Below, piece by piece: positions 5,188 through 21,492 of a stretch of DNA of 34,362 bases. The notes below the pieces were generated by a model that worked only from the letters and a program-made list of their open reading frames with translations, searched no databases and was not told where the DNA came from. Every line of letters begins with the position of its first letter. Positions within the stretch are counted from its first letter, which is position 1. A program made the translations under genes and the position numbers. Source of the DNA: Nitrososphaerales archaeon (GTDB lineage Archaea; Thermoproteota; Nitrososphaeria; Nitrososphaerales; CADDZS01); the NCBI GenBank assembly GCA_030037995.1, contig JASHPQ010000103.1:1-34362 (forward strand). The letters are read 5' to 3'.

Positions 5188-5225
5188 AATTATCATTGTT
5201 GAGAATCGCATTCAGACATAAATAT
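5188..5225 (+). promoter_or_regulatory. Palindromic operator plus TATA box of XDH operon 1
   Basis: AATTATCA (5188-5195), a four-base spacer and TGAGAATC (5200-5207) form the 8-4-8 element; the right half is perfect and the left matches 6 of 8. The TATA-like ATAAATAT is at 5218-5225. The eleven bases CATAAATATTC around it are identical to those before the second XDH operon. The transcript is expected to start near 5246-5250. Confidence 0.65.
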
Positions 5226-5305
5226 TCTAATTCTTCCCTTATTGATGAGTCAATTTTGCTTAATATTGTTTGGCAAGGTTTGGTTGGCGCGTGACAACAA
5301 ATGAT

Positions 5306-6184
5306 ATGATTCTGCTAACCGGTGCACTCAGGCTTCCAGCAATTAATTTTCTGATGCCATCCACAATAGATGAAGCACTGGCTATTCTTTCAGAAGACGC
5401 AGACGCAAGACCCATCGCAGGAGGAACCTATTTAGTACCAGGCCTAATGTCCCGCCGGCTCAAAGCCAAAACATTGGTGGATCTAACTGGCGTCAGTGAA
5501 TACAGATACGTAAAGTGGGAGAAAGAGTCTCTAAAGATTGGCGCTCTCACAACAATGGCAGAGCTGGTCGAGAACGAGTATCTACGAAGTTTCGACGCGA
5601 TTACCACTTTCAAGAGCGGTTTCGTATCACCTCCAGTCATGAATCTTGCTACTGTTGGCGGAAGCATTGCGCTGAGAGCATACACAGAGGATCTCGTCAT
5701 TATTCTCTATTCCCTTGGTGCGAAGCTGAAAATGATGAGGAAAGGTGGTTTCGAAACAGTTCCCCTAGAAAGATATCTGTCTTCTCCCGCCGAGGACTCT
5801 GGTCTTGTAGTTGAGCTCGAGATTCCTTCGCCGAGAGACAACTTGTTCTGTTTCTTCGATAAGTTAAACATGTCAGTCTCCCGTATCCCATTCGCAAGCC
5901 TCTCGCTGAAGGCAGAATTCGACAGAGACGTTTTCTCTAAGGTAACTTTGGTCGCAAACTGCGCCAGAGGCACGACTCCCGGTAGGCTCCTTGAAGCGGA
6001 GAATGCTCTAACAAATACCAAATTTGATGAGGCCCGGGTGGTTCAAGCTGTCAACAAGCTCAAGACCGAGGTAGATCCTCACTCAGATTACATGGCTCCT
6101 GCGTGGTACAGAAAGGAGGCGCTGGGAGCCTTGTTAAGGAAGCTCTCGTCCCGAGCACGTCAAAAGGTGATTTCAAGAGCATGA
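5306..6184 (+). CDS. XDH-type FAD-binding (medium) subunit, operon 1
   Basis: CoxM/YgfM-like medium subunit of a molybdenum hydroxylase. It should carry FAD and pass electrons from the iron-sulfur subunit to the acceptor. The opening INFLMPSTIDEALAILSED and the first FAD-pyrophosphate motif IAGGTYLVP are clear. The second motif, usually TIGGN followed by a small-residue stretch and D, reads TVGGSIALRAYTED here, so GGN has become GGS; FAD binding may be altered. The start is uncertain: ATG 5306 gives about 14 residues before the domain, while GTG 5291 and TTG 5270 are in frame. Its stop overlaps the next ATG (6181) by four bases, showing translational coupling. It is the first gene of a medium-small-large operon. 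Confidence 0.85.
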   Translation: MILLTGALRLPAINFLMPSTIDEALAILSEDADARPIAGGTYLVPGLMSRRLKAKTLVDLTGVSEYRYVKWEKESLKIGALTTMAELVENEYLRSFDAITTFKSGFVSPPVMNLATVGGSIALRAYTEDLVIILYSLGAKLKMMRKGGFETVPLERYLSSPAEDSGLVVELEIPSPRDNLFCFFDKLNMSVSRIPFASLSLKAEFDRDVFSKVTLVANCARGTTPGRLLEAENALTNTKFDEARVVQAVNKLKTEVDPHSDYMAPAWYRKEALGALLRKLSSRARQKVISRA

Positions 6185-6657
6185 TAGAGAGAAAGCTACG
6201 ACTTTCCTTCACAGCGAATGGGAAGCCACGCTCTCTTGATCTGAAAGGGAATGAAAGATTGATTGATGTTCTGAGAGACTCCTTGGATTTAAAGAGCGTA
6301 AAGGAAGGTTGCGGAGCAGGGGACTGTGGTCTCTGCCTCGTTCTGGTCGATGGTAAACCGATGCATTCCTGCCTCACGATGGCTGCCCGAATTGAGGGTA
6401 AAACTGTGATTACTGTCGAAGGACTAGGTGATGAGCGACAGCTCTCCCCTATTCAGAAGGCCTTTGTTGAAACTGGGGCTGTCCAGTGTGGATATTGTAT
6501 TCCCGCCCAAATTCTAGCCGCGAAGAACCTGCTAGACACGAATCCCCGGCCAACTAAGGCCGAGATAAGGAAGGCATTGAGCCCAGTGCTATGCCGATGT
6601 GGAAGTTATCTCCGATTTGAAGAGTCGGTAATCCTCGCCTCCGGTGGAAGTACCTAG
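6181..6657 (+). CDS. XDH-type 2Fe-2S (small) subunit, operon 1
   Basis: Small subunit (158 residues) of the first molybdenum hydroxylase, carrying two [2Fe-2S] clusters that relay electrons from the molybdenum site to FAD. Plant-type ferredoxin cysteines are at residues 44, 49, 52 and 64 (GCGAGDCGLC then HSC). The alpha-helical cluster domain has Cys103, 106, 138 and 140 (QCGYC and CRC). The usual CTPG and CRCTGY are CIPAQ and CRCGSY here, but all eight ligands remain. I start it at ATG 6181, which overlaps the medium-subunit stop in ATGA; a longer in-frame ATG at 6103 lies inside that gene and adds residues not typical of the family. Its 3' end overlaps the large-subunit gene. Confidence 0.93.
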   Translation: MIERKLRLSFTANGKPRSLDLKGNERLIDVLRDSLDLKSVKEGCGAGDCGLCLVLVDGKPMHSCLTMAARIEGKTVITVEGLGDERQLSPIQKAFVETGAVQCGYCIPAQILAAKNLLDTNPRPTKAEIRKALSPVLCRCGSYLRFEESVILASGGST

Positions 6658-8983
6658 ATTGGACTCACAGCAAGCCATCCAGCTTGGAGAAATGAAAGAA
6701 GCTGAAAGTTTCTCTGTTGTCGGAAAGAAGGTTCCCAAGGTGGGGGTCCTCGAAGCGGTGCTTGGCAAGCCAGCATACACGGCCGATCTGGTTTCAGGTG
6801 AACTGCTGTATGTGAAGGCGGTCCGCTCGCCCTACGTCCACGCCTCAATACAGAATTTAGACACATCCGGGTGTACGGCTAATCATGATGTGGTGAGGGT
6901 ACTCACTTGGAGAGATATACCAGGTGCCAATGACGCAGGCTCGATATTATCTGACAGACCCCTCCTAGCACAGGATAAAGTTAGACAGCGCGGCGAGGCG
7001 CTGGCCATTGTCGTTGCAAAAACCCGTCAAGCTGCCGAAGATGCCGCGAATCTGATAAAGATTACCTACGCTCCCTTGCCGGTGGTTACAAATCCGGTTG
7101 ACGCCCTAAAGCCTGATGCCCCAAAAGTCCAAGAGCAAGGTAATCTTGTGAAACACATGAAAATTCGGAAGGGGAACGTGGAAAGAGGATTCTCCGAGTC
7201 AGATCTTATTGTGGAGAATACGTTTAGGACAGAGTTTATGGATGGGTTGCCACTCGAAACAGAAGTCGCCTACAGCTATCTTGAGCCGAACGGAAGGATA
7301 ACGTGTGTCTGCTCTATGCAGAACCCATTCGACGTCTACGATAAGGTGGCCAAGATCCTTGGCGTTCCAGAAGGGAAGCTGCGTATGATTCAAGCAAAGA
7401 CTGGTGGAGGTTTCGGACCTAAATCCGACGAGACCCCCATCGATGTGGCGGCATATGCTTGTCTCGCAACGCTGAACACCGGTAAGTCGGCACTGGCGCA
7501 GTTCACGAGAGATGAATCTATGATAATTCAATGCAAGCGCCATCCCTTCACCATTAGAAATAAAACCGGAGTCAAAAACGATGGCAGACTCATCGCTTGG
7601 GAATCAGAGCTTATCGAAGACACAGGAGCATACATATCCAAAGGGCATCTGGTCCTTGGTAGAGCAATTTTTCACTGCACTGGGCCCTACGAAGTCCCAA
7701 ACGTCAAGGCAGATGGATATTGCGTTCTTACTAATAACACCACAGCGGGTTCGACAAGAGGTTTTGGTTCACCTCAGGCTCATTTCGCGGCTGAGGTACA
7801 AATGGACATGATTGCGGATAAATTAGGCATGGACCCCGTTGTTTTTAGAGCGAAGAATATTCTCAGGCCAGGGACATCTACCGCAACAAACCAGAAGATC
7901 GAAGATCCTGGGTTGGAAATCTGCCTCGAAAAAGTAGTCGAAAAATCTGGCTGGTACCGCAGGAGAAGGGACTATGAACAATGTAACGAGCGTAATGGTT
8001 CGCTGAAAAAGGGGATTGGAATAGCCTTGCTCTATCACGGCAATACTCTCGGACCTGAGGGAGGGGATTCCACGACGGTGTACATCAGTATCACACCAGA
8101 TGGGAAAGCAGTCGTCGAAACGGGATTGACAGACTTTGGCGCAGGAGGAACGACATCGCTGCCAATAGTCGTTGCGGAGGTACTCGGCCTGCACTACGAT
8201 GAGGTCAAGTTGGAGCAGCCAGACACTAGCCGAATCAGCAATTCTGGACCAACGGTGGCTTCAAGGGTAACGGTGATCGGGGGGAGAGCGGCCTTCGATG
8301 CGGCTCAGAAAATCAAGGAGAAGCTTAAGCCCGCTGCGGCAGCTATGCTCCATTGCGATGAGTCGCTTTTGATCTTTAGAGAGGGAAGCGTTTATTCTAG
8401 AGCAATGCCTGGGAGAAGAATTGCCTTCAAAGATCTTGTGACTGAAAGCTTGAATCGCGGCACAGAGCTGAAAGCCGTTGGATATTACAGCGCACCACCT
8501 ACTATATGGAATGCCGAAACGGGGCAAGGCGCTCTGTACAATCAGTATACTTTTGGGGCCCTAGTTGCAGACGTGGAGGTCGATACACAGACAGGGTTCA
8601 TCAAGGTCAGGGAGTTGACACCCGCGTACGATGTTGGCAAGGTCATAAATCCGTTGGGCCTACTCGGTGTCTATGAAGGGGGTTCGATTATGGGAATTGG
8701 ATACGGCATCATGGAGAGAATCGTTAGCAACAATGGAACAATCATGAACCCAACCCTTCACACGTACTGGATACCGACGATCATGGATTGCCCCGACAAA
8801 ATAAACAGTATAGAAGTCGAGTCTGCTGGACCAATAGGAGTTTTCGGTGCAAAGTCCATGGGCGAGATTCCCATTGTCCTACCTGCTGCGGCGATAGCAA
8901 ATGCTGTGGCCCACGCGACAGGGTTGCGAATAAAGCAACTCCCTATGACTCCCGACAAAATTTTGGCAGCTATGGGAGACTAA
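6644..8983 (+). CDS. XDH-type molybdenum-binding large subunit, operon 1
   Basis: Catalytic subunit (779 residues) of a xanthine dehydrogenase-family hydroxylase binding molybdopterin cofactor. Visible are the entry SVVGKKVPKV...GKPAYTADL, the cofactor loop TGGGFGPKSDE, the arginine loop TAGSTRGFGSPQAHFAAEVQ, TDFGAGG in place of the common 'E.GQG', and the C-terminal GVFGAKSMGEIP with the catalytic glutamate. The CO dehydrogenase active-site signature AYRCSFR is absent, so a purine or other N-heterocycle is the likelier substrate. Start GTG 6644 overlaps the small-subunit gene by 14 bases; ATG 6692 is an alternative. Context beside adenine deaminase favours hypoxanthine/xanthine hydroxylation, but specificity is inferred. 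Confidence 0.92.
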   Translation: MEVPRLDSQQAIQLGEMKEAESFSVVGKKVPKVGVLEAVLGKPAYTADLVSGELLYVKAVRSPYVHASIQNLDTSGCTANHDVVRVLTWRDIPGANDAGSILSDRPLLAQDKVRQRGEALAIVVAKTRQAAEDAANLIKITYAPLPVVTNPVDALKPDAPKVQEQGNLVKHMKIRKGNVERGFSESDLIVENTFRTEFMDGLPLETEVAYSYLEPNGRITCVCSMQNPFDVYDKVAKILGVPEGKLRMIQAKTGGGFGPKSDETPIDVAAYACLATLNTGKSALAQFTRDESMIIQCKRHPFTIRNKTGVKNDGRLIAWESELIEDTGAYISKGHLVLGRAIFHCTGPYEVPNVKADGYCVLTNNTTAGSTRGFGSPQAHFAAEVQMDMIADKLGMDPVVFRAKNILRPGTSTATNQKIEDPGLEICLEKVVEKSGWYRRRRDYEQCNERNGSLKKGIGIALLYHGNTLGPEGGDSTTVYISITPDGKAVVETGLTDFGAGGTTSLPIVVAEVLGLHYDEVKLEQPDTSRISNSGPTVASRVTVIGGRAAFDAAQKIKEKLKPAAAAMLHCDESLLIFREGSVYSRAMPGRRIAFKDLVTESLNRGTELKAVGYYSAPPTIWNAETGQGALYNQYTFGALVADVEVDTQTGFIKVRELTPAYDVGKVINPLGLLGVYEGGSIMGIGYGIMERIVSNNGTIMNPTLHTYWIPTIMDCPDKINSIEVESAGPIGVFGAKSMGEIPIVLPAAAIANAVAHATGLRIKQLPMTPDKILAAMGD

Positions 8984-9107: not shown

Positions 9108-9143
9108 GATTCTCAGATTTGAGAATCGAATCAAGTCTAATAT
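9108..9143 (+). promoter_or_regulatory. Perfect palindromic operator plus TATA box of ygeW1 operon
   Basis: This is the best copy of the recurring element: GATTCTCA (9108-9115), spacer GATT, TGAGAATC (9120-9127), with both halves perfect. An extra half-like GATTCTAG lies at 9096-9103. The TATA-like TCTAATAT is at 9136-9143. The ATG at 9165 is about 25 bases from the centre of that box, so translation probably starts at or next to the first transcribed base. Confidence 0.75.
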
Positions 9144-9164: not shown

Positions 9165-10238
9165 ATGATTTCAATGACAATCCCATCATATGTCGGATCG
9201 ATGGCTGGAAAGGATTTTCTCAACACGAATGATTATACGCAAAAAGAGATTGCTGCGATTCTTACTGCATCAGATGACCTAAAGAAGAAGTTCAGGAGAA
9301 GGGCTTCAACCGAGTATCTGCCGGGCAGAACGATCTTCTTGCTTTTCTACAATCGGTCTTTGAGAACAAGGAACTCTTTTGAGGCAGGTATCTATCATTT
9401 AGGCGGGCACGCTCATTTTCTCAGTCCGAGTGACATGTATACTCCAACGTTGCCAGAGGACATGGTTCCGTACCAGACTGAGGCCATCGCTGATGTCGGA
9501 AGGGTACTTTCTCGCTATGGTGACGCAATCGCGATAAGGGTTTATGGAGATGCCGCAAAGTGGGTGATTGGAAGGGGCCATAAAATCATTGAAGAATTTG
9601 CACGCTGGAGCAATGTTCCGGTTCTGAACATGGAGGACGACGTGTACCATCCATTTCAAGCTTTAGCAGACATGAAGTCAATATTGGAAGTAACTCCTAA
9701 ACCAAAAGGAAAGAAATTTGTCGTATCGTATGCGTATTCAGGAGGTCTCAAACCTCTTGCTGTTCCTCAAAGCTGTGTGTTGATAGGGACTCAATTCGCC
9801 ATGGATGTCGTGTTGGCTCATCCCAAAGGATTTGAACTCGAAGACAGCCTGATCAAGTCAGCCAGAGAAAACAGCGACAGATACGGGGGAAGCTTCGAAG
9901 TAGTAAATGATATGAAAGAGGCTTTCAAGGATGCTGACTTTGTTTACCCTAAGGCATGGTCGCCCAAAAGCTTCGTCCCTCCATACAACATAACGGTAGA
10001 CAAGAATGGGGCTTCAGAATATCAAGACAAGTTCAAGGATTGGAAATGCACGCAAGAAATGATGGACCTCACTAACAAAGGAAAGTACATGCACTGTGGA
10101 CCCGCGGACAGGGGGCAGGAAGCAACCGATGATGTTATTGACAACCAGACATATTCACTCTACTTCGAGCAGGCGGAAAATCGATTACATGTTCAAAAGG
10201 CTGTCATGGCAATGATCATGGGCTCCAAACGCAGATAA
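9165..10238 (+). CDS. YgeW-like carbamoyltransferase 1
   Basis: Aspartate/ornithine carbamoyltransferase superfamily, 357 residues. The carbamoyl-phosphate motif is SLRTR (residues 65-69, in NRSLRTRNSFEAG) rather than STRTR, a variant also seen in acetyl- and succinyl-ornithine transferases. VYHPFQALADM corresponds to the usual HPTQ.L.D. The amino-acid loop is MHCGPADRGQEATDDVID (from residue 309) instead of HCLP..RG. These changes argue against ordinary arginine biosynthesis. In the direction expected here it would move a carbamoyl group from a ureido compound to phosphate, making carbamoyl phosphate for the carbamate kinase at 21.7 kb. It is first in an operon with two PLP enzymes. The ATG is fixed by the TATA spacing. 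Confidence 0.82.
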   Translation: MISMTIPSYVGSMAGKDFLNTNDYTQKEIAAILTASDDLKKKFRRRASTEYLPGRTIFLLFYNRSLRTRNSFEAGIYHLGGHAHFLSPSDMYTPTLPEDMVPYQTEAIADVGRVLSRYGDAIAIRVYGDAAKWVIGRGHKIIEEFARWSNVPVLNMEDDVYHPFQALADMKSILEVTPKPKGKKFVVSYAYSGGLKPLAVPQSCVLIGTQFAMDVVLAHPKGFELEDSLIKSARENSDRYGGSFEVVNDMKEAFKDADFVYPKAWSPKSFVPPYNITVDKNGASEYQDKFKDWKCTQEMMDLTNKGKYMHCGPADRGQEATDDVIDNQTYSLYFEQAENRLHVQKAVMAMIMGSKRR

Positions 10239-10255
10239 TCTCCGGGGGATCGTGG

Positions 10256-11287
10256 TTGTCCGGCGGAAATTATAGTATCCTTGACGCTATTGGGAACACT
10301 CCAATTGCAAAGCTCTCCAAGATACCTCTGTCAGAGAAGTTACAGTCGGAAATCTATGCGAAGCTGGAATTCTTCAACCCTACTGAAAGTCTGAAGGACA
10401 GAGTCTACAAGGAGATGATCTTGGACGCCGTAAAAAGAGGGGAGCTAAAACCAGGGATGGAGATTTTGGAGGCTTCAACGGGAAACGCGGGAATCTCCTG
10501 CACCTTCATTGGCACATTGCTGGGGTACAAAGTTACAATTGTCATGCCCGAGGGGATGAGTGATGAACGGAAAAAGCTCATCAGAGCCTTCGGCGGAGAA
10601 TTGATCCTTACGCCCGGGCGCGAAAGTGACGTAGACCTGTGTCTAAAGAAAATAGATCAGCTTTTGGAAGGCAATAAAGGCAAATATTGGTTTCCAGCTC
10701 AGTTTACGAATCCGGACAATCCTTCGGCCCACTATCGAACCACCGGGGCGGAAATCTGGAGCCAGCTAGATGGAAAAGTGGATTGTTTTATCGCATCTCA
10801 GGGTACTGGTGGAACGCTGACGGGGGTCGGGAGGTATCTGAAGGAAAGAAATCCCCGCGTCAAACTTTATGCCGTTGAACCCTCAGAGACTCCTATCCTC
10901 TCCCGAGGGAAATGGGGGACTCATAAGATCGAGGGGATAGGCGACGGATTCGTTCCGAAGAATCTGGATTTGAGCCTGCTGGATGGTATCATCACGGTTG
11001 CTTCCGACGAAGCAATCGAAATGGGGCGTCGCCTTATGAGAGAAGAAGGGATCTTCTGCGGCATATCTTCAGGATGCAATGTGTCCGCGGCCATCAAGTT
11101 ACTGAAAAAGCACCCGGAGATACACAGACTCGTTACAATGATAAACGACTCTGGAAGTAGGTATCTCTCCACCGAATTATTTGGAGAGAAGAAGATGTTC
11201 ACTGCGACCCGAAGCACGCGTGAACTCGATCAATACAGCTTGGAGCAGCTGGGGAAATACCAAACAAGGTTCGAGATCATAAATTAG
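10256..11287 (+). CDS. Cysteine synthase-like fold-type II PLP enzyme
   Basis: A 343-residue PLP enzyme of the cysteine synthase/cystathionine beta-synthase group. The Schiff-base lysine is Lys47 in NPTESLKDRV. The substrate loop is STGNAGIS (residues 74-81) where O-acetylserine sulfhydrylases have TSGNTGIG-type loops. The phosphate loop is GTGGT (183-187), and GIGDGFVPKNLDLSLLD and GISSGCNVSAA follow. The altered loop and its place 17 bases after carbamoyltransferase 1 suggest a beta-elimination of a diamino- or ureido-amino acid (for example an ammonia-lyase) rather than cysteine synthesis; that is inference. Start TTG 10256 has a GGGGGA about eight bases upstream. No cysteine biosynthesis gene is nearby. 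Confidence 0.85.
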   Translation: MSGGNYSILDAIGNTPIAKLSKIPLSEKLQSEIYAKLEFFNPTESLKDRVYKEMILDAVKRGELKPGMEILEASTGNAGISCTFIGTLLGYKVTIVMPEGMSDERKKLIRAFGGELILTPGRESDVDLCLKKIDQLLEGNKGKYWFPAQFTNPDNPSAHYRTTGAEIWSQLDGKVDCFIASQGTGGTLTGVGRYLKERNPRVKLYAVEPSETPILSRGKWGTHKIEGIGDGFVPKNLDLSLLDGIITVASDEAIEMGRRLMREEGIFCGISSGCNVSAAIKLLKKHPEIHRLVTMINDSGSRYLSTELFGEKKMFTATRSTRELDQYSLEQLGKYQTRFEIIN

Positions 11288-11356
11288 AATAAATGCACCG
11301 CAGGAGTCGTTTAGGGCAAAGCCGAGCAGTTAACATCTTCTGGAGTTGAGAGAAGA

Positions 11357-12604
11357 TTGGTTTTCGTAGAGAGGCTGGTCTGCTCTAAATGTAGCTCAAA
11401 TTATCGGGCCGAAGATAGCCCCATCATGTGTAAGAAAAGAGATTTCGGACGGCTCGATATCGTCTATGACTATGCTGCTATTTCGAACAAATTTGATCGA
11501 ACCACGTTGGAAAAAAGAGAAGTTAGAGACGTGTGGCGATACGAGGAGCTTTTGCCCGTGTCCTCGAAATTCTCCGTTAGACTTGGAGAGGGTGGAACGC
11601 CTCTCATTCACGCAAGAAGACTGGGTGAAAAGCTCGGTATGAGAAATCTGTTCTTGAAAGACGAGACTAGAAATCCTTCCGCCTCGTTCAAGGATAGAGC
11701 TATGACTGTGGGTTTGGCAAAGGCATCGGAGCTCCAAAAACGGGATGTCGTAATTGCTTCAAGCGGCAATGCCGCCGCATCGTTAGCTGCATATTCCGCG
11801 GCTGCAGGTATAACATGCCATGCTTTTGTTCCCCAGGATGCATCCAAAGGGAAAATTGCCCAGCTTCTTTTGTTTGGAGCTGACGTACTTCGTTGCAAAC
11901 AAATCAAGGAGGGAGAGGATCCCACTGTCAAAATGATGATCTCGGCCATAGACAGATTTGGATACTATCCTTGTCCGAGCTTCGGACCATTCAATCCATA
12001 TCAAGTAGAAGGCCCGAAAACGATTGTCTATGAAGTCTACGAACAGCAAAACTGGGGAAATCTCGACTTGATCCTTGTTCCCACTGGATCTGGTTGCCTT
12101 TTGACAGGCATATGGAAAGGTCTTGAAGACTTCAAGAAGCTTGGCTTCATTGAATCTTACCCGCGCCTTGTTGCGGTTCAACCAAAGGGAAACTCGGCTC
12201 TCGTTAGGGCGGTGAGCCAAGGCTTGGAATTTGATCAAATAGTACCCGAGGCTTTTCCTGCATCTGTCGCATCAGGACTTTTAGATCCATACCCATGGGA
12301 TGGAGACGCCGCGATGGTCGCGATCCGGAAGAGCAAGGGTGCGGGTATTTCTGTAAGCGACGAGGAGATCATGAAGGCGGTGAAAGAACTCGCGGCCTAC
12401 GAGGGTACATTCGCGGAACCTTCGGGGGCAGCTGGCCTCGCAGGACTGGAGAGAATGATAGAAGACGGACTCATTGATAAGAATGATAAGGCGGTAGTTC
12501 TCATCACCGGTTCCGGCCTAAAGGAACCAGAAAAGGTAATGGGAATGTATTCTGAGCCTCATCTCATCGAACCTGAAATAGAAAATGCTCAACCGAGTCG
12601 GTAG
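11357..12604 (+). CDS. Threonine synthase-like fold-type II PLP enzyme
   Basis: A 415-residue protein with the threonine synthase layout: N-terminal ribbon, then a fold-type II domain with Lys112 in PSASFKDRAM, the loop SSGNAAASLAAYSAAAG, VPTGSGCLLTG and a C-terminal ITGSGLKEP. The ribbon is incomplete: Cys9 and Cys12 (CSKC) are present, but the second pair is only Cys25 in IMCKKRDFGRLD, so a four-cysteine zinc site is lost. It follows the cysteine synthase-like gene by 69 bases with no operator between, so it is probably the third gene of the ygeW1 operon. A catabolic lyase such as threonine/serine dehydratase or diaminopropionate ammonia-lyase is possible; true threonine synthase cannot be excluded. 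Start is TTG. Confidence 0.82.
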   Translation: MVFVERLVCSKCSSNYRAEDSPIMCKKRDFGRLDIVYDYAAISNKFDRTTLEKREVRDVWRYEELLPVSSKFSVRLGEGGTPLIHARRLGEKLGMRNLFLKDETRNPSASFKDRAMTVGLAKASELQKRDVVIASSGNAAASLAAYSAAAGITCHAFVPQDASKGKIAQLLLFGADVLRCKQIKEGEDPTVKMMISAIDRFGYYPCPSFGPFNPYQVEGPKTIVYEVYEQQNWGNLDLILVPTGSGCLLTGIWKGLEDFKKLGFIESYPRLVAVQPKGNSALVRAVSQGLEFDQIVPEAFPASVASGLLDPYPWDGDAAMVAIRKSKGAGISVSDEEIMKAVKELAAYEGTFAEPSGAAGLAGLERMIEDGLIDKNDKAVVLITGSGLKEPEKVMGMYSEPHLIEPEIENAQPSR

Positions 12605-12615
12605 CTGGTCGCTAC

Positions 12616-12656
12616 GATTCTCACTTCTGATAATCGTACTCAGCCCATAAATATTC
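12616..12656 (+). promoter_or_regulatory. Palindromic operator plus TATA box of XDH operon 2
   Basis: GATTCTCA (12616-12623), spacer CTTC, TGATAATC (12628-12635): left half perfect, right half 7 of 8. The TATA-like ATAAATATTC starts at 12647, in the same CATAAATATTC context as XDH operon 1. The transcript should start near 12677, just before the TTG at 12686. Confidence 0.7.
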
Positions 12657-12685
12657 TGGTCCTCTCTAAATGAGAGAAGCCCATT

Positions 12686-13147
12686 TTGCAATTTAGAAAA
12701 TACTCGTTCAAGCTTAACAACCAATCTATCGCGGTGGAGGCTCCGCCTGCATATACCCTCCTTGAAGTCCTGAGGAACGTCTTGAATCTCACTGGAACCA
12801 AGGATGGTTGCAGCGAGGGCGAGTGCGGAGCTTGTACAGTAATTATGAACGGCAAGGCAGTTAATTCATGTCTTACAATAATGGAGCAAGTGGAAGGTGC
12901 CGACGTGATCACAATCGAGGGCCTGGCCAAAGATTACGAAGGGGACGCACTTCTTAGGGCGTTTATCGAGGAAGGAGCCGTACAGTGCGGTTATTGCACA
13001 CCCGGACTAATGATGTCTTCAAAGGCGCTCTTGGCAACAAATCCGAAACCCAGCGCTGATGAGATCAAGAAAGCACTGAGGGGGAATATCTGCAGGTGTA
13101 CAGGATACGCGATGATCCTAAAGGCAGTTTTGAGAGCCGGGAGTTGA
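12686..13147 (+). CDS. XDH-type 2Fe-2S (small) subunit, operon 2
   Basis: Iron-sulfur subunit (153 residues) of the second molybdenum hydroxylase. All eight cluster cysteines are in the standard setting: 42, 47, 50 and 62 (GCSEGECGAC then NSC) and 101, 104, 136 and 138 (QCGYCTPG and ICRCTGY). It is more canonical than the operon 1 subunit. Start is TTG 12686, about nine bases after the transcript start predicted from the TATA box; no in-frame ATG gives a family-like N-terminus. First gene of a small-medium-large operon that continues into a carbamoyltransferase and an aminohydrolase. Confidence 0.94.
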   Translation: MQFRKYSFKLNNQSIAVEAPPAYTLLEVLRNVLNLTGTKDGCSEGECGACTVIMNGKAVNSCLTIMEQVEGADVITIEGLAKDYEGDALLRAFIEEGAVQCGYCTPGLMMSSKALLATNPKPSADEIKKALRGNICRCTGYAMILKAVLRAGS

Positions 13148-13153
13148 GCTCAC

Positions 13154-14026
13154 TTGATAACACTCTCTGAAATCGAAGTGGAGACCCCGAAAACACTTGA
13201 GGAAGCTCTGCCGAAGATCGATAGCACAAGATACAGAATCATTGCGGGAGGCACCGACGTTATAATTCAAATGAAAGAGGGAACGCTGCCAAAGAAGAAG
13301 CTGTTGAATATCTATCAACTCAACGAATTGAGGTACATTCGGACAGACGGAGAGAATCTCCGCATAGGATCTCTGACGAGCTTGGCAGACATAGCCAACT
13401 CAAGAGAAATAAATGAATTTGCGACAATCCTCGCCCATGCAGCGGGTAAAATTGGATCAATGCAGATCACCAGCAAGGCGACTATTGGAGGCAATCTGGG
13501 TAATGCTTCTCCTTCGGGAGATTGCATTCCACCTCTGTACGCACTAGATGCACGAGTAGTTGTAGCGAGCACAAAAGGTAGCAGGGAGATTCCAGTCAAA
13601 GACTTCTTCGATGGGTACAAGCATCCAGACTTGCGCCAGAACGAACTGATCATCGAGATTAATTTCAAGAGAATGGATGACGGAGAAGATGGTCTTTTTC
13701 TGAGACATGCCCTTAGGCTCGCTGAGGCTTGCTCAGTAGTTAGCGTCTCTATATGGCTCAGGAGAAGCGTTAGAAAAGCAGAGTTTTCCGACGCAAGAAT
13801 TGCCTTAGGAGCCGTAGCGCCCACCGTAGTTAGAGCGTACGAATCCGAGGAAATCGTGAAGTATGGTATTCTCGATGAGGATAGGATAGAAGCAGCCTCA
13901 AATGCAGTTCTGGGATCCATTTCTCCTATAACAGACGTAAGGGGAACTGCAGAATACAGACGAGACATCGCTGTGAACCTGACCTATCAAGGCCTCCATG
14001 ATCTTCTGGCCAGGAACGTGGGATAG
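13154..14026 (+). CDS. XDH-type FAD-binding (medium) subunit, operon 2
   Basis: FAD subunit (290 residues) with both FAD-pyrophosphate motifs intact: IAGGTDVIIQM (about residues 35-45) and KATIGGNLGNASPSGD. The length and the C-terminal CO dehydrogenase flavoprotein domain are normal. It starts at TTG 13154, six bases after the small-subunit stop, and its TAG is immediately followed by the ATG of the large subunit, so the three are translated from one message. Comparison with the operon 1 paralogue shows that the GGS variant there is a departure, not a lineage-wide trait. Confidence 0.92.
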   Translation: MITLSEIEVETPKTLEEALPKIDSTRYRIIAGGTDVIIQMKEGTLPKKKLLNIYQLNELRYIRTDGENLRIGSLTSLADIANSREINEFATILAHAAGKIGSMQITSKATIGGNLGNASPSGDCIPPLYALDARVVVASTKGSREIPVKDFFDGYKHPDLRQNELIIEINFKRMDDGEDGLFLRHALRLAEACSVVSVSIWLRRSVRKAEFSDARIALGAVAPTVVRAYESEEIVKYGILDEDRIEAASNAVLGSISPITDVRGTAEYRRDIAVNLTYQGLHDLLARNVG

Positions 14027-16354
14027 ATGACAGTACGAGACTTCAAATGGATAGGCAAGCCCATTCCGAGAAGGGACGCCTCCAAGAAAGCCAGCGGCGC
14101 GACAAAATATGCATCGGACATGTTTCTGCCAGGAATACGGTGGGCAGGTGTGCTTAGAAGCAGATATGCCCACGCACTAATCAAGCGAATAGACACCTCC
14201 AAGGCTGAGGCGCTTGCCGATGTTGATGCAGTTCTAACCCACAAGGACGTGCCGAGGGCGAGTGACAACAGATACGGAGTGTACATGCACGACAGGCCTG
14301 TCCTATGCGACGATAAAGTGCGCTATATCGGAGACCCGGTGGCACTGGTCGTAGCTAAAAGCGCAGAGAAGGTAAACGAAGCGCTTGCCCTAATAGACGT
14401 TGAATACGATCCTCTACCAGTCGTTTCAGATCCCGTTCAGGCTCTCAAACCTGATTCGACGCGAGTGCAGGAAAATGGGAACGTTTGCAGAAAGACGAGA
14501 ATATCATTCGGAGAAGTGGAAAAAGCTTTTCAAAAAGCGGCCGTGGTAGTTGAAAATACATATCGTACAGGCTGCCCTTTGCATGCTTATCTAGAAACCG
14601 AGGCAGGGGTAGCTTACCCGGATGAGGAAGAAAGGATAACGCTAGTAGTGGGAGGGCAGGGGCCGTATAAGGACAGGTCGGAAATATGCAAAGTCCTTGG
14701 ATTACCAGAAAAGCGCATCAGAGTGATCACGCCCCCAGTCGGAGGAGGCTTCGGCGGAAAGGACGACGTTACAGTGCAGCTTCATCTTGCTCTCGCGGTC
14801 CTCAAGACAGGGAAACCAGTGAAGCTCGTCTGGACGCGCGAGGAATCATGTATAGCAGGGGTAAAGAGACATCCCAGCATAATTAGAATGAAGACGGCGG
14901 CTAACTCTGAAGGCTCATTGATCGCAAACAAGGCCGAGATAATTTATGATACGGGAGCATACGCGGTACTCGGCCCGGCCGTTCTAGATGTGGCGATAGA
15001 AAACTGTTCGGGACCGTACAGAATTCCGAACATTGATATCGAGGCCACGCTAGTCTACACTAACAATCATGTTGCGAGCGCCTTCAGGGGATTCGGCGCA
15101 CCACAAGTCATGTTCGCAATTGAGAGTCAGATGGATATTCTAGCCGAGCGGCTTGGTTTGGACCCAATAGACTTCAGACTCAGGAATGCTCTAAGAAAAG
15201 GTGACGTCGGTCCTTTCAAGAACAAGCTCGAGGGAGGGATTGGAATCTGTGAAGCGCTGGAGAAAGCTAGAAGGCATGATCTATGGATAAATAAAACAAG
15301 GAAGGTGTCGAATGATCACCTTTGGTTAAGACAGGGCGTGGGAGTTGGGGCGGCAATCAAGGGATACACCTTGGGTGCTCTTCCCGACAAAGGTTCCGCA
15401 AAGATAGAACTCACGGAAGATGGAAAGTTTTTGGTGAAGGTCGGCACTACGGAGCTCGGTCAAGGCATGTCAACAACCTTCGCCCAAATAGCCGCGGAAG
15501 CTCTAGAATGTGACTTGAATGGCGTATCTGTCGTTTTCGCAGATACACTTCAAACGCCGGATACTAGCGTGACTTCGGCATCGAGGCAAACCTACGTAGG
15601 TGGCAATGCGATCCTGACAGCAGCTAGGAAGATGTTGGATCTGCTTCTCGAATCATCAGGGAAAGCACTTGATGAGCCTGTTGAGGATCTGAAAATCGAA
15701 TCGTCAGAAGTGATCTCCACGAAAACGGCTGGAAGGATTTCTTACACCAAAATAGCTGAGTATGTTAGACGGAGAAAACTTCCCGCCGAGGTGGTTGGAA
15801 CATTTGACGTACCTCGCGTCGACCCAATCCAAGGTTCTCTGGAAATACCCCATCTATTCTACATGTTTGCTTGCGCCTTGGCACAAGTGGAGGTAAACAC
15901 GCTGACAGGACTGGTCAAAATAGTCAAATTAGTTTGCCTTCCAGATGCAGGGAAGATAATCAACCCACAGATCTTCGAGGGACAAATAGAGGGAGCTGCT
16001 CTCCAAGGTGTTGGATTTGCAGTCATGGAGGAAGCCAAGATCGAGGAAGGACTGCTGAAGACGCCTGACTTTTCGACGTACCTTATACCAACAATCCAAG
16101 ATGCTCCTGAGATGGAAGTAGTTCCCGTAGAAATTGAAGAGGATACCGGTCCTTTCGGTGCGAAGGGGGTTGGTGAAATCGGGCTCATACCCATCGCGCC
16201 AGCTATAATAAACGCGATCTATGACGCCACAGGAACTAGGTTATACGAGATTCCGGCTACACCAGAAAAAGTATACTGGGCGCTGAAAAAAAGAAAAAAT
16301 GAAGCGAGCGAGGCAGAGGGAAGAATGAAGCAAGTTTTGGTTCGCTCACACTAA
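14027..16354 (+). CDS. XDH-type molybdenum-binding large subunit, operon 2
   Basis: Catalytic subunit (775 residues) of the second hydroxylase. Landmarks are GKPIPRRDASKKASGATKYA at the start, GGGFGGKDDV, VASAFRGFGAPQVMFAIESQ, the TTELGQGMSTTFAQIAAEAL segment, TSASRQTYVGGNA, and GPFGAKGVGEIGLIP with the catalytic glutamate. These are the standard xanthine dehydrogenase-type loops; the CO dehydrogenase AYRCSFR loop is absent. Compared with the operon 1 enzyme the loops are closer to consensus, so the two may act on different positions or different purines. ATG 14027 directly abuts the preceding stop. The basic tail after the family C-terminus is of unknown meaning. Confidence 0.93.
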   Translation: MTVRDFKWIGKPIPRRDASKKASGATKYASDMFLPGIRWAGVLRSRYAHALIKRIDTSKAEALADVDAVLTHKDVPRASDNRYGVYMHDRPVLCDDKVRYIGDPVALVVAKSAEKVNEALALIDVEYDPLPVVSDPVQALKPDSTRVQENGNVCRKTRISFGEVEKAFQKAAVVVENTYRTGCPLHAYLETEAGVAYPDEEERITLVVGGQGPYKDRSEICKVLGLPEKRIRVITPPVGGGFGGKDDVTVQLHLALAVLKTGKPVKLVWTREESCIAGVKRHPSIIRMKTAANSEGSLIANKAEIIYDTGAYAVLGPAVLDVAIENCSGPYRIPNIDIEATLVYTNNHVASAFRGFGAPQVMFAIESQMDILAERLGLDPIDFRLRNALRKGDVGPFKNKLEGGIGICEALEKARRHDLWINKTRKVSNDHLWLRQGVGVGAAIKGYTLGALPDKGSAKIELTEDGKFLVKVGTTELGQGMSTTFAQIAAEALECDLNGVSVVFADTLQTPDTSVTSASRQTYVGGNAILTAARKMLDLLLESSGKALDEPVEDLKIESSEVISTKTAGRISYTKIAEYVRRRKLPAEVVGTFDVPRVDPIQGSLEIPHLFYMFACALAQVEVNTLTGLVKIVKLVCLPDAGKIINPQIFEGQIEGAALQGVGFAVMEEAKIEEGLLKTPDFSTYLIPTIQDAPEMEVVPVEIEEDTGPFGAKGVGEIGLIPIAPAIINAIYDATGTRLYEIPATPEKVYWALKKRKNEASEAEGRMKQVLVRSH

Positions 16355-16390
16355 GTTGCTCGCGACGACAAAATTGACGAGTTTTAGATT

Positions 16391-16397
16391 AAGGAGG
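16391..16397 (+). promoter_or_regulatory. Shine-Dalgarno-like AAGGAGG before ygeW2
   Basis: A strong AAGGAGG lies 17 bases before the ATG at 16415, longer than the usual spacing, with no other in-frame ATG, GTG or TTG between. No operator or clear TATA box lies in the 60-base gap after the large subunit, so the gene is probably read from the XDH operon 2 promoter. Confidence 0.4.
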
Positions 16398-16414
16398 CTT
16401 TCGAACTAATTCGC

Positions 16415-17452
16415 ATGCAATCTTCCGAGCTACGTGGAAAGGACCTCATATCCACGCAAGAGTGGAAGAGGGAGGAAATTGACTACCTGATGCAATTTGC
16501 CAAGGATATAAAACAAGAGTACTATTCGGGGCGCGTTCCTGAGCTGTTCAAGAACAAAACCTTCTTCATGCTTTTCTACAATACCTCGACAAGGACCAGA
16601 TCAAGCTTTGAGGCCGCGGCAACGATTCTAGGGGGTCATGCACAGTTCATTGACTTCGCCACTACAAGAGGCTCCGAAGGCGAATCAGTCAAAGACATGG
16701 CAAAAATGTACGAAAGGCTCGGACATGCTCTCGGAGTCAGAGTCCTGGAATCTGCCGTGGATTACGTCTACGGCCGGGGAAATGCCCTAATAAGGGAATA
16801 CGCAAAGTATGCGGATATACCCGTCATAAACATGGCTGATGATGTCTATCACCCCACCCAAGCGATAACTGATATTTTCACTCTCCGAGAAAAATTTGAT
16901 GGAAAGTTAGCGAAGAAAAAATATGTCATCGCGTGGACCTACAGCGATCATATTAGAAGCTGGGGAAGCGTACAAGATGAGATGCTGATAGCCACCAAGT
17001 ACGGAATGAATACACTGCTAGTCTATCCGGAGGGATTCGACCTTGACGAGAATCTGATCCAAGAAGCCAGGAATAATGCTGGACAATTCGGTGGCAAGCT
17101 GGAGATAAGTCATAACTTGGAGGAATCTGTGACTGGAGCTGATGTGGTCTTCCCCCGAAGCTGGGCGAGTCATGAATGTGTCTTGACTGGAGTAAACCGG
17201 TTTACAAAAGAGAGGGAGGTAGATCTTCACAACGAATACAGAGATTGGCGTCTGACAACAAAGTTGACCGACTCCATGGACAAAGAAGGCGTCGTTACGC
17301 ATGTGCTCCCAGTCTTTAGGGGGCAGGAGGCTGATGACGAAGTGATGGACGGTCCGAGAAGCATTATTTACGATCAAGCGGAGAATCTCTTATACGTGAG
17401 AGCAGCGGTTTTGGCGTTGCTTCCAGGCAGTCTTACTGCGAACCTCAGGTAG
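16415..17452 (+). CDS. YgeW-like carbamoyltransferase 2
   Basis: Second member of the carbamoyltransferase superfamily (345 residues). It keeps the carbamoyl-phosphate motif STRTR (residues 58-62, TSTRTRSSFEAAATILGGHA) and ADDVYHPTQAITDIFTLRE. In the amino-acid loop it has THVLPVFRGQEADDEVMDG (from residue 295), so the cysteine of the ornithine transferase HCLP motif is valine. It differs from carbamoyltransferase 1 in both loops, which suggests a different ureido substrate or position rather than redundancy. It follows the XDH 2 genes by 60 bases and precedes an aminohydrolase. Arginine biosynthesis is unlikely from context. Confidence 0.83.
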   Translation: MQSSELRGKDLISTQEWKREEIDYLMQFAKDIKQEYYSGRVPELFKNKTFFMLFYNTSTRTRSSFEAAATILGGHAQFIDFATTRGSEGESVKDMAKMYERLGHALGVRVLESAVDYVYGRGNALIREYAKYADIPVINMADDVYHPTQAITDIFTLREKFDGKLAKKKYVIAWTYSDHIRSWGSVQDEMLIATKYGMNTLLVYPEGFDLDENLIQEARNNAGQFGGKLEISHNLEESVTGADVVFPRSWASHECVLTGVNRFTKEREVDLHNEYRDWRLTTKLTDSMDKEGVVTHVLPVFRGQEADDEVMDGPRSIIYDQAENLLYVRAAVLALLPGSLTANLR

Positions 17453-17541: not shown

Positions 17542-18948
17542 ATGGATATTCTTGTTCAAGATCCAACCATTCTGACAATGCGGTTAGGATCGAATGAAGT
17601 GATCCGAACAAGCATTGCAGTCAATGATTCAAAAATCGTTGGAATCGGAGACCAAAATGATCTGAAGAAGAAATTTGGATCACCGGATAAGACGCTTGAC
17701 GCGAAAGGCAGGATCGTTGTCCCAAATTTCATAAACGCTCACACGCATACCTACCAGACTCTGCTCAAAACTTTGGGCGATGGCCTTGTAATACTCGATT
17801 GGTTGAAAGCTCTAATCCATCCTTTGGCCGGGGGGCTCACAACTGAGCAAGCGAAAGTGGGAGCCATGTTGAGCTGTGTCGAAGCTCTCAGGTCCGGCTC
17901 TTCATTCTTAATAGATAATCTCTACCTGAATACTAGCGAAGAAGCAGTAGATGCTGTCGCGGACGTGTTTCTAAGATCAGGAATCAGGGGCGTTGTCGCT
18001 CGAGGATTCACGAGAAGGACAAGAAGGCATGAGTTATGGGGAACTACGCCCAAATACTTTCCTTACACGACCGAACAAGACGTTGAGATTACAGAGCGCT
18101 TGATAAGAAAATGGTCAAAAACTGGCAAGGGTCGAGTTTCTGTTTGTCCATGCCCAGTTGCTATCAATAGCTGTGGTCCTGAGCCATTTACAGAAGCAAA
18201 GAAACTTTCAGACAAATATGGAGTGTACTTGCATTCACATATTGCCGAGTCAAAAAGGGAGGTCGAAACTACAATTGAGGACTATGGAAAGAGGGAAGTT
18301 GAATTCTTGAACGATCTCGGTGTTTTGGGCCCCCGGACGGTAATCGCGCACGGAATTTGGCTAAGCGAAGAGGAAATAGAGATGTGCGCCAAGTCAAGTA
18401 CTTGCATTGTATACAACCCCATCAGCAACATGTATCTTGCTTCCGGAGTTCTGCCCCTTGAGAAGCTCCTCTCCAAGGGAGTGCCGGTAGCTCTGGGTTC
18501 CGATGGCGGCACGGTTGGCAACAGTCATGAAATGTTCTCGGTCATGAAAGCTGCTTCGCTTCTTCAAAAAGTCTCGACTCTCGATCCCACCCAGGGTCGT
18601 TGTCTCACTTCACTTGAGCTTGCGACTGCGAGAGGTGCAAGGGCTCTCGGGCTTCAGGACTCTCTTGGCTCGATAGAAGTTGGTAAAAAAGCTGATTTCA
18701 GCATTCTTGACCTCAATTCTCTTTACACAACGCCGTATCACGATTTGGCGACGGCGATAGTTTACTACGGTAGTCCCCAAAATGTTGAGACTGTCCTAGT
18801 TGATGGGCAGATTATTGTAGAAAACAAGAGGCTCTTGACCATAGACGAAGAAAAAGTCATTAAAGAAGGAGCAAGAGTCTCAGAAAAACTAGTTAGTGAT
18901 CTCGGCTTGAAGAACCTTACACTTTCAAAGACCTTGCGACCACAGTAG
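17542..18948 (+). CDS. Amidohydrolase, TRZ/ATZ-type ring aminohydrolase
   Basis: A 468-residue metal-dependent aminohydrolase of the cytosine/guanine deaminase-SAH deaminase group, expected to hydrolyse an amino group or ring bond of a purine-derived heterocycle. The metal histidines are His67 and His69 in [12 protein letters not shown], then HSHIAES and [13 protein letters not shown], with the catalytic aspartate in [16 protein letters not shown]. The C-terminal composite-domain lobe ([27 protein letters not shown]) is complete. It starts at ATG 17542 with CAGGAGAT about 20 bases upstream, 89 bases after carbamoyltransferase 2, and is probably last in that operon. It is less SsnA-like than the gene at 19.0-20.4 kb; guanine or 8-oxoguanine deaminase is conceivable. 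Confidence 0.85.
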
Positions 18949-19033: not shown

Positions 19034-20416
19034 TCAGACAAGCGAGGGTTTTCCCAATCGCAGGGGCTCAATAGTCGCTGGCGGAGATGACCCAAACCTT
19101 CGCCATAGTCCGTCCATCGATTTCAGAATCTGTTGCTCCGCCTTCTCGATGTCGAGCTTCATCATTTTTCTCCCTCTCATTATTATTTCTCCGTCGATGA
19201 TGACGTCCCTTACGTCTGGCCCCTTCAGTCCATTTACTACGTAACCATAAATCGAGCCTGTGTACGGGGTAGCCAGGAAAGCTGGCCGTATGACTATGAT
19301 GTCCGCTTGCTTGCCCACCGCAATGGATCCGATTGAGCTAAGGCCGTATGCCTTTGCAGCATTGACAGTGCACATCTCTACAACTTCTTGCGGGGACGGC
19401 CGATTGGGATCCCTCCTTGCAACTCTGTGCAGGAGGAAAGCAGCACGCATATTCTCAAACATGTCAAAGATGTATCCATCATTTCCCAGGCTTACATTGA
19501 TCCCGCGTTCGATCATTTCCATAAGAGATGTCATTCCCACTGCATTTAGCATATTGCTCATCGGATTATGAGCAACATTTGCTGAAGTTTTGCTGATCAG
19601 TTCAAGTTCTCGCTCGTTAAGGTGAACGCAGTGTGCGAGCACCGCTCTAGAAGAGAGCAAACCTATTTCATGCAATCTTTCTACGGTTCGCTTTCCGTAC
19701 CTTTCCATATTATGATAGGTATCATTCTGTCCTTCCGAAACATGTATTGTAAGGGGCAAATTGTATTTTGCACTTGCCTCAACTCCCTGCATAATGAGTT
19801 CATCTGAAACTGTAAAAGATGCATGCAGGCTTATCATCGCCAGCGCTCTTCCTTTATCTTTCTTGTTCTTGAAACGGATATTTTCCTGTAACCCTCTTCT
19901 CCCCTCCGCAGCGTTCCTCCTTTCAGTTGCCTCAAATGAGATCATTCCCCTCATACCAACCTCGTTCAATGCCCTTGAGATGTGGTCAAGAGAACCTGCG
20001 ATCTCGTTTGGAGCCGAATAGGTATCCGCGTAACAAGTCGTCCCATTCATGACGGATTCTATACTCGAAGCTAAAGTAGTCGCATACGCGTCTTCATTCG
20101 TTAGTTTCTCATCAAGCGGCCACCAAGTTCTTTGAAGAATCTGTAAAAAGTCTGAGGGTGGCTTTACGTTCAGTGCAGAACCTCTTAGAGCTATACCATA
20201 CAAGTGCGTGTGAGCACATATCAGCCCGGGCATTACTATGCACTGGCTGGCATCTAGTACTTCGTCTGCAGCGAAACCTCTGGACACAGAATCTGCGGAG
20301 CCAACCTTGACGATTTTGCCATCTTCAATGGCCACCGCTCCGTTATGAATAATCCTTCTCTTTTCGTCCATCGTTAAGACGACCGCGTTTTGGACCAGTA
20401 GTTTCTTAGATGCCAA
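19034..20416 (-). CDS. ssnA: SsnA-like aminohydrolase
   Basis: A 460-residue amidohydrolase whose sequence follows the E. coli SsnA pattern closely: VMPGLICAHTHLYGIALRG (His69, His71), SDFLQILQRTWWPLDEKLT (about residues 88-106), the segment SAPNEIAGSLDHISRALNEV, SFEATERRN and LQENIRFKNK. Further metal-site segments are SLHASFTVSD, TIHVSEGQND, LAHCVHLNE and LGNDGYIFDMFENM. SsnA belongs to the gut bacterial purine/uric acid gene set, where it is assigned a hydrolytic step on an opened purine; the exact reaction here is inferred. It starts at TTG 20416 with an AAAGGAGG motif 11 bases upstream, and lies 31 bases behind the LLM gene in one operon. It converges on the aminohydrolase ending at 18948. 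Confidence 0.83.
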   Translation of the reverse strand: MASKKLLVQNAVVLTMDEKRRIIHNGAVAIEDGKIVKVGSADSVSRGFAADEVLDASQCIVMPGLICAHTHLYGIALRGSALNVKPPSDFLQILQRTWWPLDEKLTNEDAYATTLASSIESVMNGTTCYADTYSAPNEIAGSLDHISRALNEVGMRGMISFEATERRNAAEGRRGLQENIRFKNKKDKGRALAMISLHASFTVSDELIMQGVEASAKYNLPLTIHVSEGQNDTYHNMERYGKRTVERLHEIGLLSSRAVLAHCVHLNERELELISKTSANVAHNPMSNMLNAVGMTSLMEMIERGINVSLGNDGYIFDMFENMRAAFLLHRVARRDPNRPSPQEVVEMCTVNAAKAYGLSSIGSIAVGKQADIIVIRPAFLATPYTGSIYGYVVNGLKGPDVRDVIIDGEIIMRGRKMMKLDIEKAEQQILKSMDGLWRRFGSSPPATIEPLRLGKPSLV

Positions 20417-20447: not shown

Positions 20448-21461
20448 TTATGCTAGCGACTTGACCATATACTCAACATTGGCGCTCAACGGGAGAAGCA
20501 AAGGAGATTTACATCCAGTTGCCACATACTCGGCAATCTTTTTTCGGCAATCTTCTGGGCTACCAGATGCGGTAAGCATTCGAACAACATCATCAGGAAC
20601 TAGTCCCGCGGCCCTTTCGATTCCTCCGGGCTTCGCAGGCCAGCCACCCATCCTTTCCTGAACCGCCCTAATAAGTTCGTCCTTAACTCCGCTTGCCTTC
20701 ATTATGTGAGGTTGCTGTCCAAGGGTCATGGTAACGTGATTTTTGGCGAGCCTTACGGCCTTGTCTGGATCCTCGTCTACTGAGCATGCGATAAGCTGGG
20801 CCGTGTCTATTTCATCCATCCGTCTACCTGCCTTTTCCGCACCGCGTTTAATACTCGAAAGAGCATCTTCGTTGTATTTTGGAGACACCAAGTAATTCAG
20901 GAGTACTCCATCGGCAATTTCACCCGCAAGCTCCAGCATCTTGAAGCCTGTTCCGCCTACGAAAATCGGAATTGCTCTTGGCCTCTCTCCAGTTCCATGA
21001 AGCATGTCGAGCTTCACTCCATCCATCTTCACGAATTCTCCTTCAAAGTTAACCTCTTCCGCCCTAAGGAGCGATCTGATTATCTGCACGTACTCCCTCA
21101 TGCATTGAAGCGGTTTTGTCCTCTTTATTCCGACCTTTCGCGCCAAAGGATCCCACCACGCCCCTAGCCCGAGCAAGACTCTGCCATTGGATAATTCATC
21201 CAGTGTTGCAAACGTCTGCGCAATTAGGGCTGCATTTCTAGTCCACGTGTTTATGACACCAGTGCCCACCTTTATCCTGTTCGTGTCCGTGGCGATAGCT
21301 GTTGCAGGTACGACCGCATCCCTTGCCAACCTGGACTCTGCAACCCAAACCGATTCAAATCCATATTGCTCTGCTATCCGGGAATAACTTACCATATCTC
21401 TAACATGCATATCTTGGAGGTAGAGGCCTAATCTCCGAATCTTCTTTCCATTTTCCGCCAA
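20448..21461 (-). CDS. LLM-family flavin/F420-dependent oxidoreductase
   Basis: Luciferase-like monooxygenase-fold protein (337 residues from the start chosen) resembling archaeal Mer and F420-dependent reductases: KIRRLGLYLQDM, AEQYGFESVWVAES, GTGVINTWTRNAALIAQTFATL, GRVLLGLGAWWDPLARKVG and PIFVGGTGFKMLELAGEIADG. I choose TTG 21461 rather than the first in-frame ATG (21491). The TATA-like TTAAATTC (21493-21500, minus strand) predicts a transcript start near 21470, downstream of that ATG, and the domain begins soon after. It is co-transcribed with ssnA under one palindrome, so it likely acts in the purine route, perhaps as an F420H2-dependent ring reductase. That role is an inference. Confidence 0.82.
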   Translation of the reverse strand: MAENGKKIRRLGLYLQDMHVRDMVSYSRIAEQYGFESVWVAESRLARDAVVPATAIATDTNRIKVGTGVINTWTRNAALIAQTFATLDELSNGRVLLGLGAWWDPLARKVGIKRTKPLQCMREYVQIIRSLLRAEEVNFEGEFVKMDGVKLDMLHGTGERPRAIPIFVGGTGFKMLELAGEIADGVLLNYLVSPKYNEDALSSIKRGAEKAGRRMDEIDTAQLIACSVDEDPDKAVRLAKNHVTMTLGQQPHIMKASGVKDELIRAVQERMGGWPAKPGGIERAAGLVPDDVVRMLTASGSPEDCRKKIAEYVATGCKSPLLLPLSANVEYMVKSLA

Positions 21462-21492
21462 TTCGGTCGCGGTGTAACACGATCCCATCACT

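Follow-up and report, generated by a model that had tools for sequence, protein, structure and literature searches.

Two divergent carbamoyltransferases in archaeal purine-degradation clusters suggest a variant of the reductive uric acid pathway

In the reductive uric acid pathway, uric acid is reduced to yanthine, which SsnA and HyuA open to 2,3-diureidopropionate, a route that has been reconstituted in bacteria (PMC12507026). One ureido group is then removed by phosphorolysis through YgeW and one by hydrolysis through YgeY, and the resulting diaminopropionate is converted to pyruvate by YgeX (PMC12507026). Elucidated in 2025, the pathway has been described as confined to certain anaerobic bacteria and as possibly of recent gut origin; which ureido group the bacterial enzymes cleave first is an open question (PMC12990295). 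In Chloroflexota, a luciferase-family protein has been proposed to replace YgfK (PMC12507026). Here, we analyzed a 34,362-nucleotide stretch of DNA from a Nitrososphaerales archaeon (contig JASHPQ010000103.1), called the window below, which holds genes for two divergent carbamoyltransferases, CT1 and CT2, within a purine-degradation cluster. It corresponds to contig 187 in an assembly of 3.3 Mb and 323 contigs, with a completeness of 87.7% and a contamination of 5.2%.

We consider it probable that this cluster encodes an archaeal reductive uric acid route in which CT2 replaces YgeY and both ureido groups of 2,3-diureidopropionate would leave as carbamoyl phosphate. What is observed is the gene content of the cluster, its conserved order, the intact carbamoyl-phosphate sites of both enzymes, their co-occurrence across genomes, and the absence of YgeY. 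The window contains the gene set expected of the pathway, namely the SsnA marker, xanthine dehydrogenase, HyuA, a carbamoyltransferase, and a pyridoxal phosphate (PLP)-dependent lyase candidate. The CT-pair cluster seems to represent a new, archaeal form of a pathway so far described for bacteria only.

CT1 (9165 to 10238; 357 amino acids) and CT2 (16415 to 17452; 345 amino acids) both lie on the forward strand, as do the adenine deaminase-like, xanthine dehydrogenase-type, CysK-like, threonine synthase-like, amidohydrolase, carbamate kinase, and HyuA-like genes described below. Both match the Pfam domains OTCace_N and OTCace far above the Pfam cut-offs. Their open reading frames contain SLRTR (residues 65 to 69; 9357 to 9371) and YMHCGPADRGQ in CT1 and STRTR (residues 58 to 62; 16586 to 16600) and THVLPVFRGQ in CT2, and the SxRTR motif, the beta-4 arginine, HPxQ, and H..P are invariant across 38 CT1 and 31 to 32 CT2 sequences. 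Since these carbamoyl-phosphate residues are invariant, both enzymes look catalytic. The marks of the superfamily (SxRT, HPxQ, HxLP, and both Pfam domains) are present, with HCGP standing for HxLP in CT1. The original prediction of two divergent carbamoyltransferases with SLRTR and STRTR sites is therefore borne out by the reading frames, the domains, and the invariant residues, while its further claim that both proteins carry unusual loops holds in one case only. In CT1, HCGP (residues 310 to 313; 10092 to 10103) exchanges the leucine of HxLP for glycine, which occupies this position in 35 of the 38 CT1 sequences, with leucine in the other three. The HPGP of some aspartate carbamoyltransferases (ATCases) is a precedent for this change. 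CT2's HVLP (residues 296 to 299; 17300 to 17311), on the other hand, is ordinary and was rejected as an unusual motif, since it falls within the family motif HxLP, which Barba et al. list as H[AVC]LP for YgeW-type enzymes (PMC4016543, PMC4581275).

Neither protein reached the curated cut-off of any profile for ornithine (OTC), acetylornithine (AOTC), putrescine (PTC), YgeW, or aspartate (ATC) carbamoyltransferases, and filing either one under these families was rejected for this reason. The top-scoring curated model was the acetylornithine enzyme (AOTCase) for both (259.9 bits for CT1 and 224 bits for CT2, against a cut-off of 288), and the YgeW models gave 156 to 160 bits for CT1 and 124 to 131 bits for CT2, against cut-offs of 453 to 500. 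The DxxxSMG loop of ornithine carbamoyltransferase (OTCase), the RxQxER loop of ATCase, and the extended 240s loop of YgeW were found in neither protein. With HCGP and HVLP, neither has the HDLP of DPTCase, nor does either show the H[ST]LP motif of ureidoglycine transcarbamylase (UGTCase) or belong to the ATCase branch, in trees that contained no UGTCase sequence. Apart from CT1 and CT2, the genome has two PF00185 proteins, on C79 and C280 (L040 and L041), both OTC-type with an SMG motif; an aspartate carbamoyltransferase was not found in this incomplete assembly.

The substrate-side residues separate CT1 from CT2. CT1 retains the glutamate and lysine that AOTCase uses, has the loop KPLAVPQ, and shares the KPxxVP loop and HxxPAD with both YgeW and the bacterial relatives, as well as K196 and K263 with YgeW. 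CT2 reads RSWGSVQ and lacks the proline-rich loop characteristic of knotted transcarbamylases; its Arg248 and Ala141 stand where the knotted enzymes have lysine and glutamate or glutamine. CT2 has its own invariant set in 31 to 32 sequences, comprising R85 in the 80s loop, A141, R181, R248, and V297, which fits a different substrate. The closest solved structure to either predicted model is AOTCase, with a TMq of 0.86 for CT1 (predicted local distance difference test [pLDDT], 90; predicted TM score [pTM], 0.91) and 0.84 for CT2 (pLDDT, 81; pTM, 0.85).

In two trees, CT1 and CT2 are each recovered as a single clade outside the biosynthetic clades; placement within one of these would, by the original prediction, have refuted its reading. 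Both trees set OTC and PTC apart from CT1, CT2, YgeW, and the acetylornithine and succinylornithine enzymes (AOTC/SOTC), with support of 100/100 in the careful tree, from which one divergent archaeal sequence had been set aside. The order among these four groups differs between the trees, and approximately unbiased (AU) tests pick none: CT1 falls with YgeW in the quick tree and beside AOTC/SOTC in the careful tree (97/95). Grouping CT1 with YgeW is allowed (p-AU, 0.33), and grouping it with OTC/PTC is rejected (p-AU, 0.019). The nearest named CT1 relatives are metagenome-assembled genomes (MAGs) labelled Nitrososphaerales archaeon.

Of the 398 genomes examined from the phylum, 37 have CT1, 35 have CT2, and 35 have both (p = 3e-48, with no correction for shared ancestry), where the CT2 count leaves out a match in genome G235 that lies on that genome's CT1; the two genomes with CT1 only are incomplete assemblies. 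SsnA is likewise present in 35 of the 398, all 35 of which have CT1, and 34 genomes hold CT1, CT2, and SsnA together. Within family f1, some genomes have the pair and others do not, and the carriers belong to many families. At E <= 1e-60, a YgeY-like match was found in none of the CT-pair genomes and in only one of the 398 genomes overall, which is not a CT genome. In a scan of genomes from GTDB, distant CT1 relatives (40 to 43%) from Bacillota and Heimdallarchaeota stood with a 55 to 74% YgeY homolog at 15 of 15 loci, and no true CT2 was found in the genomes of these loci, whereas 9 of 10 genomes with a close CT1 had one, the tenth being 0.9 Mb and probably partial. A replacement of YgeY by CT2 predicts that the two exclude each other, and the exclusion in the sampled genomes matches this. 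The idea that two carbamoyl removals act in sequence on a purine-derived diureido compound, which the original prediction had put forward, is backed by the co-occurrence of CT1, CT2, and SsnA, by the absence of YgeY from CT-pair genomes, and by YgeY beside the distant CT1 relatives where CT2 is missing; its claim of an unusual CT2 motif is not.

Gene order is conserved in a second genome of the same family (G007) and, in split contigs, in a third (G005). In other lineages, CT1, CT2, carbamate kinase, the threonine synthase-like protein, SsnA, and a PydA/UacX-type DHO_dh-Fer4 protein form one cluster, in which the last stands in place of the luciferase-family protein. The pair is spread over Nitrososphaerales, relatives of Caldarchaeum and Calditenuaceae, Hadesarchaea, and Desulfurococcaceae, and its holders appear to include the cultured Desulfurococcaceae Staphylothermus marinus and Thermosphaera aggregans, both putatively identified. 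The searched passages of papers on S. marinus (PMC2678158), T. aggregans (PMC3035292), Caldarchaeales, and deep Thaumarchaeota do not describe a reductive uric acid pathway. At the Heimdallarchaeota loci L054, L056, L057, and L059, the cluster is of the YgeY type, in some cases together with SsnA and UacX-like genes, and the pathway appears, as judged from these sequences, to reach Asgard archaea too.

We infer the substrates, the order and direction of the two carbamoyl steps, and the identities of the lyase and the reductase from sequence and context. In the proposed scheme, xanthine dehydrogenase-type enzymes, a luciferase-family reductase, and SsnA-like and HyuA-like enzymes would lead to 2,3-diureidopropionate. 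CT1, in a YgeW-like role, would transfer the first carbamoyl group to phosphate; this first step is the most likely role for CT1 because its relatives stand beside YgeY. CT2, taking the role of the hydrolase YgeY, would transfer the second, leaving 2,3-diaminopropionate. A PLP enzyme would then give pyruvate and ammonia, and the best lyase candidate is the threonine synthase-like protein (11357 to 12604), because its ortholog is present in 20 of 20 tested CT genomes; other paralogs exist in the window's genome. Carbamate kinase (21666 to 22604; TIGR00746, 411.8 bits against a cut-off of 358.25), which forms ATP from carbamoyl phosphate, would yield two ATP from the products of both transfers, compared with one in Escherichia coli. 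The SsnA-like aminohydrolase (19034 to 20416) and the luciferase-family, F420-type oxidoreductase (20448 to 21491), the latter a proposed yanthine reductase as in Chloroflexota (PMC12507026), lie on the reverse strand. The HyuA-like hydantoinase (26711 to 28153; TIGR02033, 465 bits against a cut-off of 393) is the proposed former of 2,3-diureidopropionate; a homolog occurs in all 20 tested CT genomes, and a xanthine dehydrogenase-type subunit in 16. For the wider statement, that archaea ferment uric acid reductively and save both ureido groups as ATP, with CT2 as a new class of transcarbamylase that cleaves the mono-ureido intermediate, we see about even chances.

Several observations weigh against this scheme. 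The window contains no ortholog of YgeX, YgfK, or YgeY, and several steps need nonorthologous replacements. Its SsnA-like protein scores below the curated SsnA cut-off (391.6 against 444), and the 4 of 20 tested CT genomes without a xanthine dehydrogenase-type match may start the pathway differently. The discordant trees and the AU tests choose no branching order for CT1 relative to YgeW and AOTC/SOTC. At one locus of a Eubacteriales MAG (L060, 8765 to 13403), two CT1-like genes flank YgeY and are followed by carbamate kinase. Finally, no M20 protein was found in the window, but the genome has 15 M20-type matches elsewhere, and M20 peptidases could hydrolyze a ureido group. These matches also speak for a different division of labor, in which only one of the two carbamoyltransferases acts on 2,3-diureidopropionate, an unlinked hydrolase removes the second ureido group, and the other transferase serves, for example, N-carbamoyl-beta-alanine in reductive pyrimidine breakdown. 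HyuA-like and PydA-like proteins could serve pyrimidines too, and a review suggests the existence of a catabolic beta-alanine transcarbamylase (PMC4581275). Yet the distribution of CT2 follows those of CT1 and SsnA almost without exception, and a beta-alanine route would have no need of the diamino-acid lyase candidate found in every tested CT genome, which makes this division unlikely.

The near-obligate pairing could alternatively mean that CT1 and CT2 assemble, as its two kinds of subunit, into a hetero-oligomeric carbamoyltransferase that catalyzes a single step, as carbamoyltransferase active sites lie at the subunit interfaces of trimers (PMC4581275). That each protein keeps a full carbamoyl-phosphate site, that their substrate-side residues differ while each set is invariant, and that about 55 kb separate the two genes in the genome that matches S. 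marinus (putative identification) render such an enzyme improbable. Least probable of all, and by our estimate very improbable, is an anabolic role of the pair in arginine or pyrimidine biosynthesis. It could draw on the fact that, for both proteins, AOTCase is the highest-scoring curated model and the closest solved structure, but every curated cut-off is missed, DxxxSMG and RxQxER are lacking, two standard OTC-type genes are present elsewhere in the genome, the context is a purine cluster, and the AU test rejects CT1 with OTC/PTC. Two sequential transfers to phosphate, by CT1 and then CT2, are the reading that we prefer.

The remaining genes of the window are in keeping with a purine-degradation cluster. 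An adenine deaminase-like gene (3272 to 5086; 460.6 bits, cut-off of 472.5) precedes a first xanthine dehydrogenase-type set with FAD (5270 to 6184), 2Fe-2S (6187 to 6657), and Mo (6644 to 8983) subunits. The second set (12686 to 16354, with genes at 12686 to 13147, 13154 to 14026, and 14027 to 16354) is directly upstream of CT2. The position of E. coli XdhD Glu606, considered as a mark of the set that would reduce uric acid, falls in a gapped part of the alignment and did not distinguish the two sets. A CysK-like PLP enzyme (10256 to 11287), above the cysteine synthase cut-off, adjoins CT1; its threonine synthase-like neighbor likewise scores above the curated threonine synthase cut-off yet sits in a purine cluster, and the standard annotation of these two genes (10256 to 12604) may be wrong. 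An amidohydrolase resembling guanine/8-oxoguanine deaminase (17542 to 18948) had no counterpart in the clusters of G007 and G005. Between carbamate kinase and HyuA, an energy-coupling factor (ECF)-type transporter (22804 to 26430) consists of a membrane protein with no above-cut-off Pfam match, a CbiQ-like protein, and a double ATP-binding cassette (ABC) ATPase, and is a candidate purine or urate uptake system. Downstream of HyuA (28607 to 32144) are a formamidase-like protein, a class III aminotransferase, and a DgaE/SelA-related PLP protein.

The palindromes that had been predicted before both carbamoyltransferase operons are real. With up to three mismatches to GATTCTCANNNNTGAGAATC, the window holds six sites where 0.35 are expected: upstream of CT1 (GATTCTCAGATTTGAGAATC; 9108 to 9127), of the operon of the second xanthine dehydrogenase set and CT2 (12616 to 12635), of adenine deaminase (3209 to 3228), and of the first xanthine dehydrogenase set (5188 to 5207), with two copies (21512 to 21531 and 21585 to 21604) between the divergent luciferase-family/ssnA and carbamate kinase genes. 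The palindrome recurs at matching places in G007, where the first ECF-type transporter gene also has a copy of its own (L033, 13561). Genome-wide, there are 30 sites with up to two mismatches, and some, such as those at L171 (7224) and L172 (5689 and 5947), adjoin genes for pyruvate:ferredoxin oxidoreductase, CBS-domain, and universal stress proteins. A purine-specific role of the palindrome was rejected on account of these sites, which mark a wider regulon and suggest one of the anaerobic or energy-starvation type.

If the proposed route is real, the pathway would also exist beyond the gut, which would point to an ancient origin in the environment; that several archaeal lineages, hyperthermophiles among them, hold a matching set of strictly co-occurring genes speaks against an origin in the gut alone. 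Two separate transferases would also allow each step to be assayed alone, which bears on which ureido group goes first. If CT2 acts as proposed, annotations as ornithine or acetylornithine carbamoyltransferase, threonine synthase, and cysteine synthase mislead for these genes.

Compared with the reference gene set of E. coli (XdhD-YgfM, YgfK, SsnA, HyuA, YgeW, YgeY, YgeX, and YqeA; PMC12507026), the window likewise unites xanthine dehydrogenase-type, SsnA-like, HyuA-like, carbamoyltransferase, PLP enzyme, and carbamate kinase genes in one cluster. The archaeal clusters differ in that a luciferase-family or PydA/UacX-like protein takes the place of YgfK, YgeY is missing while a second carbamoyltransferase is present, and the PLP enzymes lie outside the YgeX family. 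Desulfurococcaceae-type clusters share a UacX-like DHO_dh-Fer4 protein with the Clostridioides difficile variant (UacX and UacY; PMC12507026), which, however, hydrolyzes one ureido group with UacY and keeps YgeY, where the archaeal clusters have two transferases and neither UacY nor YgeY. CT1 and CT2 resemble YgeW (YTCase) in the carbamoyl-phosphate site, and CT1 also in two lysines, the KPxxVP loop, and HxxPAD, but both are about 40 to 50 residues shorter and lack its extended 240s loop. The knotted AOTCase and SOTCase of arginine biosynthesis are the best fold match (TMq, 0.84 to 0.86), and CT1 keeps the glutamate and lysine of AOTCase; in contrast to these enzymes, the pair scores below the cut-offs and forms separate clades, and CT2 lacks the proline-rich loop, the glutamate, and the lysine. 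UGTCase from Rubrobacter (PMC4016543) offers a parallel as a catabolic enzyme that phosphorolyzes a diureido compound derived from purines, with carbamate kinase alongside, although it acts on allantoate in an oxidative route and belongs to the ATCase branch. Nocardioides sp. JS614 (ygeW, pseudo-ATCase, xdhABC, and hyuA; PMC4016543) also has two different carbamoyltransferases beside xanthine dehydrogenase and hydantoinase genes, but that system is bacterial and of putative function, and its second enzyme is of the ATCase branch with H[ST]LP.

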